Shown: positions 59,002 through 59,826 of the stretch, in pieces
How the letters are laid out: every line of letters begins with the position of its first letter
Numbering within the stretch: position 1 is the first letter of the stretch
Origin: SAR202 cluster bacterium
GTDB lineage: Bacteria > Chloroflexota > Dehalococcoidia > Lucifugimonadales > GCA-2719675
Length of the DNA stretch: 64,000 bases
Assembly (NCBI GenBank): GCA_009392295.1
Contig: VFGW01000006.1
Coordinates: 62,001-126,000 of the forward strand
Direction of reading: 5' to 3'
The notes under the pieces: generated by a model
The model's database searches: none
What the model saw: only the letters and a program-made list of their open reading frames with translations
Told to the model about the DNA's origin: nothing
Program-made: the position numbers and the translations under genes

Positions 59002-59040
59002 TGATATACTTAACCTTATTATATTTAATGAGGTTAAATC

Positions 59041-59826
59041 CTGTCTATCTTAATTACAAATGATGATGGTATCGATGCTCCTGGACTATGGACAATAGTT
59101 AATCATCTGAAACCATTCTACAAAATTACTGTAGTTGCACCAGCTAATAACCAAAGTGGGACAGGTGCTTCAATGACTCTTAAATCTACTGTCAAACTAA
59201 TAGAAAAACCCAATTACGAAGACAATGTTGAAGTTTTTACTGTTGAAGGGACTCCTGCAGATTGTGTGATATTAGCTTGCGAAAAAATTTTTAATACTCC
59301 ACCAAAATTAATAGTTTCTGGAATTAATTCAGGCGCAAATTTAGGATTAGATGTTATGTTATCAGGTACAGTAGGTGCCGCAATACATGGTTATTTACGA
59401 AATATCCCTTCCATAGCAATTTCATCATCTTATAAAAGTGAAAGTGAATTACGCTTTGATGTAGCTGGATTAATAATTGAACAATTAGTAATGAATTCAA
59501 CTAAAAAAATTTCTTCAAAACCATTTCTACTAAACGTTAATGTCCCTTCAGTAAATCTTGATGTAATTAAAAAGTTAAAATTAACTTTTCTAGGAAAATC
59601 TAATTACCAGCAAAATATTGAAAAAGATCATACATCTGAACAACAAAATTTCTGGATAAAACCAGATAAAAAAAACTATGAAAAACCAGCTGTAGGAAGT
59701 GATATCTGGGCTGTAGAAAAAAATTACATTTCTATAACAAAAATAGAACCTTTTTATTCTAGTATACTAGATGACAGTATTATCTCAGATATTATTGAAA
59801 TAATTAACTTAAAATATTTCAAATAA
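59041..59826 (+). CDS. surE: 5'/3'-nucleotidase SurE (CTG start)
   Basis: The track begins at an internal Met (59173), which would delete the active site. Reading back in frame gives x-SILITNDDGIDAPGLW, where NDDG holds the metal ligands, then VVAPANNQSGTGASMT. A TAA lies two codons before, so the only plausible start is CTG at 59041, with GAGG 7 nt upstream. Its position corresponds exactly to the Met of other SurE proteins (M-x-I-L-x-x-NDDG). The full length of 261 residues is normal. SGINSGANLGLDVMLSGTVGAA is the second family motif. The enzyme removes phosphate from nucleoside monophosphates. Confidence 0.85.
   Translation: MSILITNDDGIDAPGLWTIVNHLKPFYKITVVAPANNQSGTGASMTLKSTVKLIEKPNYEDNVEVFTVEGTPADCVILACEKIFNTPPKLIVSGINSGANLGLDVMLSGTVGAAIHGYLRNIPSIAISSSYKSESELRFDVAGLIIEQLVMNSTKKISSKPFLLNVNVPSVNLDVIKKLKLTFLGKSNYQQNIEKDHTSEQQNFWIKPDKKNYEKPAVGSDIWAVEKNYISITKIEPFYSSILDDSIISDIIEIINLKYFK

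Follow-up and report, generated by a model that had tools for sequence, protein, structure and literature searches.

A surE gene is located near the end of the window, i.e. the whole stretch of 64,000 nt of SAR202 cluster bacterium DNA that was analysed (contig VFGW01000006.1, positions 62,001 to 126,000 of the forward strand), and its frame, closed by a stop codon at 59824-59826, reads from a CTG rather than from a canonical start codon (Table 1). This CTG is separated from a Shine-Dalgarno (SD) word by a spacer at 59034-59040, the last three nucleotides of which (59038-59040) read ATC. A preliminary description of this DNA had proposed CTG as the start on the grounds that GAGG precedes it by 7 nt, that TAA closes the frame two codons before it, that the NDDG motif lies 5' of the first ATG, GTG or TTG, and that the N-terminus is in register with SurE. 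All of these sequence readings were borne out, the CTG standing at the Met column of the SurE family with no canonical codon before codon 45.

Table 1. Features of the surE locus and of genes with near-cognate or candidate near-cognate starts in the genomes compared; positions refer to the window unless a genome and contig are given (G000, window genome; G001, congener).
Feature	Position	Strand	Remarks
surE CDS	59041..59826	+	261 codons + stop, CTG start; direct reading, profile matches, orthologues
Putative CTG start codon	59041..59043	+	invariant in three species
Shine-Dalgarno GAGG	59030..59033	+	7 nt to CTG; anti-SD GGATCACCTCC at 16S 3' end of the genome
In-frame stop TAA	59035..59037	+	two codons before CTG; stop likewise in both relatives (TAA, TGA)
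NDDG catalytic/metal-binding motif	59059..59070	+	codons 7-10, 5' of first ATG/GTG/TTG
First in-frame canonical start, ATG	59173..59175	+	codon 45; rejected as real start
Putative extended -10 promoter element TGATATACT	59002..59010	+	common to three species
infC	L043 ORF, G000:C4:15323-15832; G001:C18:12226-12735	-; -	ATT/ATC start
MFS/ATG22-like transporter	L149, G000:C12:71820-73064; G001:C16:67006-68250	-; +	candidate ATC start
SDR oxidoreductase	L038:2834-3685 (G000:C6:42834-43685); G001:C2:65940-66770	+; -	candidate ATT start

Predicted Product of surE

Translated from the CTG, the protein begins (M)SILITNDDGID..., with (M)SILITNDDGIDAPGLWTIVNHLK as the predicted N-terminal peptide. The Pfam SurE profile (PF01975) matches as a full-length domain from residue 3 (E-value 5e-56, 189.9 bits for a cutoff of 22.1) and TIGR00087 from residue 2 (202.6 bits for a cutoff of 135.1). 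Regarding solved chains, residue 3 aligns with residue 4 of 2wqk and residue 2 with residue 2 of both 1ilv and 5ksq; in chains with native numbering, the partner of residue 2 is thus residue 2 or 3, and the CTG accordingly occupies the Met column of the family. Aspartates D8 and D9 of NDDG, S39 in NQSG and N96 in SGIN, which from SurE structures we take to be the metal-binding and catalytic residues, are invariant in the alignment of the three species compared below and aligned to the solved SurE chains. The product is predicted to be an ordinary SurE 5'/3'-nucleotidase, sharing with known members (PF01975, TIGR00087; PDB 1ilv, 2wqk, 4xep) the full-length domain, the x-I-L-x-T-N-D-D-G N-terminus, NQSG and SGIN, and differing from them by its start codon only.

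Conservation of the CTG Codon and Competing Starts

The window genome (G000) is a metagenome-assembled genome (MAG) of 1.45 Mb in 25 contigs. Its surE was compared with those of a MAG of the same genus, the one congener compared (G001, Chloroflexi bacterium isolate SP301; PBID01000012.1), and of the nearest further genome, a MAG of the same order but of another family (G032), the SurE proteins being 71% and 62% identical to that of the window, respectively. The start position of close homologues, which the preliminary description had suggested inspecting, holds CTG in both, i.e. GAGGTTAAGTT-CTG-GCT-ATA-TTA in G001 and GAGGTGAAAC-CTG-AAT-ATA-CTT in G032, in the same alignment column as in G000. 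The SD regions read GAGGTTAA, GAGGTTAA and GAGGTGA in G000, G001 and G032, with 7, 7 and 6 nt between GAGG and CTG, and an in-frame stop occupies codon -2 in all three. Between this stop and the essential SurE N-terminus, none of the three genomes has an ATG, GTG or TTG. Around the fixed CTG, codons -1 (ATC/GTT/AAC), 2 (TCT/GCT/AAT), 3 (ATC/ATA/ATA) and 4 (TTA/TTA/CTT) all vary. In G000, CTG makes up only 3.0% of the Leu codons, and an internal CTG aligned to Leu is still CTG in G001 in only 14% of cases; with codons so rare and so poorly kept, an internal Leu codon would seldom appear as CTG in three species.

A base error at 59041, where the true codon would be ATG, TTG or GTG, was raised as a possibility in the preliminary description and could be suspected in a fragmented MAG, since single-base errors happen; the identical CTG in two other species nevertheless makes it extremely improbable. 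Initiation at the ATG of codon 45, the upstream similarity being a relic, has in its favor that this is the first canonical start, yet its product would lack NDDG, and the position of the first canonical codon shifts among the orthologues (codons 45, 32 and 23 in G000, G001 and G032). Besides, codons 2-43, located 5' of that start, show protein-coding evolution, the differences between G000 and G001 falling 6/3/19 at codon positions 1/2/3 (p=2e-4), and coding constraint on this segment extends to the three species, so that a start at codon 45 is scarcely credible. Conservation of the CTG in the orthologues and the coding character of codons 2-43 thus practically exclude both an error in the sequence and a start further downstream. 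As judged from these alignments, the surE CTG is best regarded as a real, inherited exception and not as a sequencing error.

Regarding starts further upstream, an ATG at 59028 overlaps the SD word in another frame, from which a frameshift could be envisaged, as could readthrough of the TAA. This ATG is missing in both G001 and G032, and the stop closes the frame at the same place in 3/3 species, two codons before the CTG, which leaves hardly any room for such a start and equally counters the possibility, mentioned in the preliminary description, that homologues begin at an upstream ATG. A start at codon 3, a near-cognate ATH (ATC in G000, ATA in G001 and G032), would remove two residues from the protein and deserves consideration as the genome does have ATT or ATC starts, namely in infC and, as candidates, in the MFS and SDR genes described below. 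It would, however, stretch the SD spacing to about 13 nt, codon 3 corresponds to the conserved Ile of the family and not to the Met column, it is variable where CTG is invariant, and AUA is a poor initiator codon; a start there is considered improbable. CTG 59041 remains the preferred start.

Upstream of the CTG by some 30-40 nt, sequence comparison reveals that the element TGATATACT is kept in G000, G001 and G032. A consensus promoter scan did not report it and, for that reason, its designation as a promoter is kept putative; if it functions as such, the surE leader would measure roughly 20-25 nt. Further upstream of this element, where the window carries a divergent valyl-tRNA-synthetase-like gene, G032 differs. 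A near-perfect hairpin at 59011-59036, which would mask the surE SD, has a fold z of -2.2 in G000. It was rejected as a conserved SD-sequestering device, as the fold comparison predicted no such hairpin in either relative and most of its 5' arm is probably located upstream of the transcript start.

The preliminary description also held that automated tools would truncate surE by 44 residues, which is right for those restricted to ATG, GTG and TTG, as the mechanical open reading frame demonstrates, but overstated for tools in general. Such restricted gene finders would deliver SurE proteins deprived of the catalytic motif and 44, 31 and 22 residues short in G000, G001 and G032, respectively. 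For the window, the resulting 217-aa protein scores 140.3 bits against TIGR00087, just over the cutoff, and would thus probably be named SurE despite the loss of the catalytic motif.

Start Codons of SurE Across the Class

In a scan of 393 genomes of the class with the pattern (A/C/T)TG before the SurE N-terminus, 71 ATG, 41 TTG and 5 CTG were found, GTG being outside the pattern and seen in a separate orthologue comparison. Two of the five CTG matches are the genes of G000 and G032. The CTG of G316 and of G370 were rejected as starts, with a usable ATG five codons and a usable TTG three codons upstream, respectively. A further CTG match in the class, in G777, is not a SurE. The three genes with conserved CTG group in one clade, with 100/100 support and on a long branch, in a tree built from 32 SurE proteins. 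At the start column of the closest surE genes of the order, the commonest codon is TTG and, with TTG common at this place, the simplest origin of the CTG would be a TTG ancestor changed by one transition.

Of note, another of the five CTG matches, a distant SurE in G269 (L155:523; G269:C81:20522, + strand), reads GAGGAGAGCATC-CTG in a frame open to an upstream GTG, and may possibly represent an independent CTG start.

Translation Initiation and Proposed Mechanism

IF3 is present in G000, G001 and G032, and an initiator-type tRNA stem GGGCTCATAACCC (GGG...CCC anticodon stem, CAU) is exact in 3/3 genomes. Both G000 and G032 have an intact 16S 3' end, GGCTGGATCACCTCCTTTCT. In G000, an SD-like word precedes 45% of first canonical starts vs. 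13% of internal positions. Altered decoding was discarded as nothing unusual was seen in the initiator tRNA, the anti-SD or IF3; with such machinery, SD-guided near-cognate initiation suffices and no exotic decoding is needed.

We infer that surE is initiated at CUG. The 30S subunit would be placed by pairing of GAGG with a normal anti-SD, after which fMet-tRNA would pair with CUG despite a mismatch at the first position. It would be stabilised by the favorable placement of the SD and by IF2, a factor that helps keep the mRNA in place at a CUG start (PMC11497404). The SurE N-terminus would then be fMet-Ser-Ile-Leu-Ile-Thr-Asn-Asp-Asp-Gly. Synthesis would be limited by initiation and SurE output is probably low. 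The CTG would have become fixed before two GTDB families diverged, and would have been retained since. Taken as a whole, this explanation, i.e. an ordinary SurE gene with SD-guided initiation at CTG 59041, is very probably correct.

In E. coli, CUG drives 0.86% of AUG expression and, at 0.024% of bacterial start codons, it is by far the rarest NTG (PMC11497404); a reporter study in mycobacteria saw no selection of CTG, even when an SD was provided (PMC4633059). Few bacterial CTG starts are known, namely plasmid repA, E. coli ano and Deinococcus deserti rpsL (cited in PMC5960689), and a literature search on SAR202 and start codons returned no relevant report. Like these genes, the window surE has a predicted CTG start and no usable canonical one; it differs from them in that sequence comparison shows its CTG to be conserved in three species of two families. 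Its membership of this very rare class is well-supported by the sequence comparisons. This conservation is what lifts the case above a curiosity, as a CTG that has persisted in two bacterial families would constitute natural evidence for CUG initiation as a stable, working state and not a transient flaw.

Near-Cognate Starts Elsewhere in the Genome

Some 1.03 Mb of G000 was surveyed against 1.17 Mb of G001, i.e. 633 coding pairs, for proteins conserved over at least 10 codons 5' of the first ATG, GTG or TTG, a criterion that starts near an ATG escape. Within these 633 ortholog pairs, surE came out as the only clear CTG/CTG start, and a genome-wide CTG habit was dismissed on that count. Two other CTG:CTG columns follow SD-like words but lie within genes that have an ATG further upstream.

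The gene infC is the classic textbook case of a non-canonical start, with AUU or AUC and IF3 autoregulation. Its recovery by the survey, with ATT in G000 and ATC in G001 after AGGAGA, provides a positive control. In the same genomes, infC and surE share a near-cognate start of the kind discriminated against by IF3, surE differing in having CTG and not ATH. Two further genes carry candidate starts of this sort. In an MFS/ATG22-like transporter, the N-terminus is conserved 5' of any ATG, GTG or TTG and the candidate start is ATC in both genomes, after AAGG. In an SDR oxidoreductase, the first canonical codon falls within the Rossmann motif and the candidate start is ATT in both genomes, 7 nt after AAGGA.

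It could be speculated that surE, infC and the MFS/ATG22-like and SDR genes form an IF3-controlled group whose near-cognate starts are under selection, though we deem this unlikely and, to our knowledge, no link between surE and IF3 is known. If true, translation of the whole group, a stationary-phase survival enzyme included, would track IF3 discrimination.

Lastly, a uvrC-like gene (L050:14885-16756, + strand) has GTC in G000 opposite the GTG start of the congener, so that in G000 no canonical start occurs before codon 30, within the conserved PGVYLM. This GTC could reflect an erroneous base or be a further non-canonical start.
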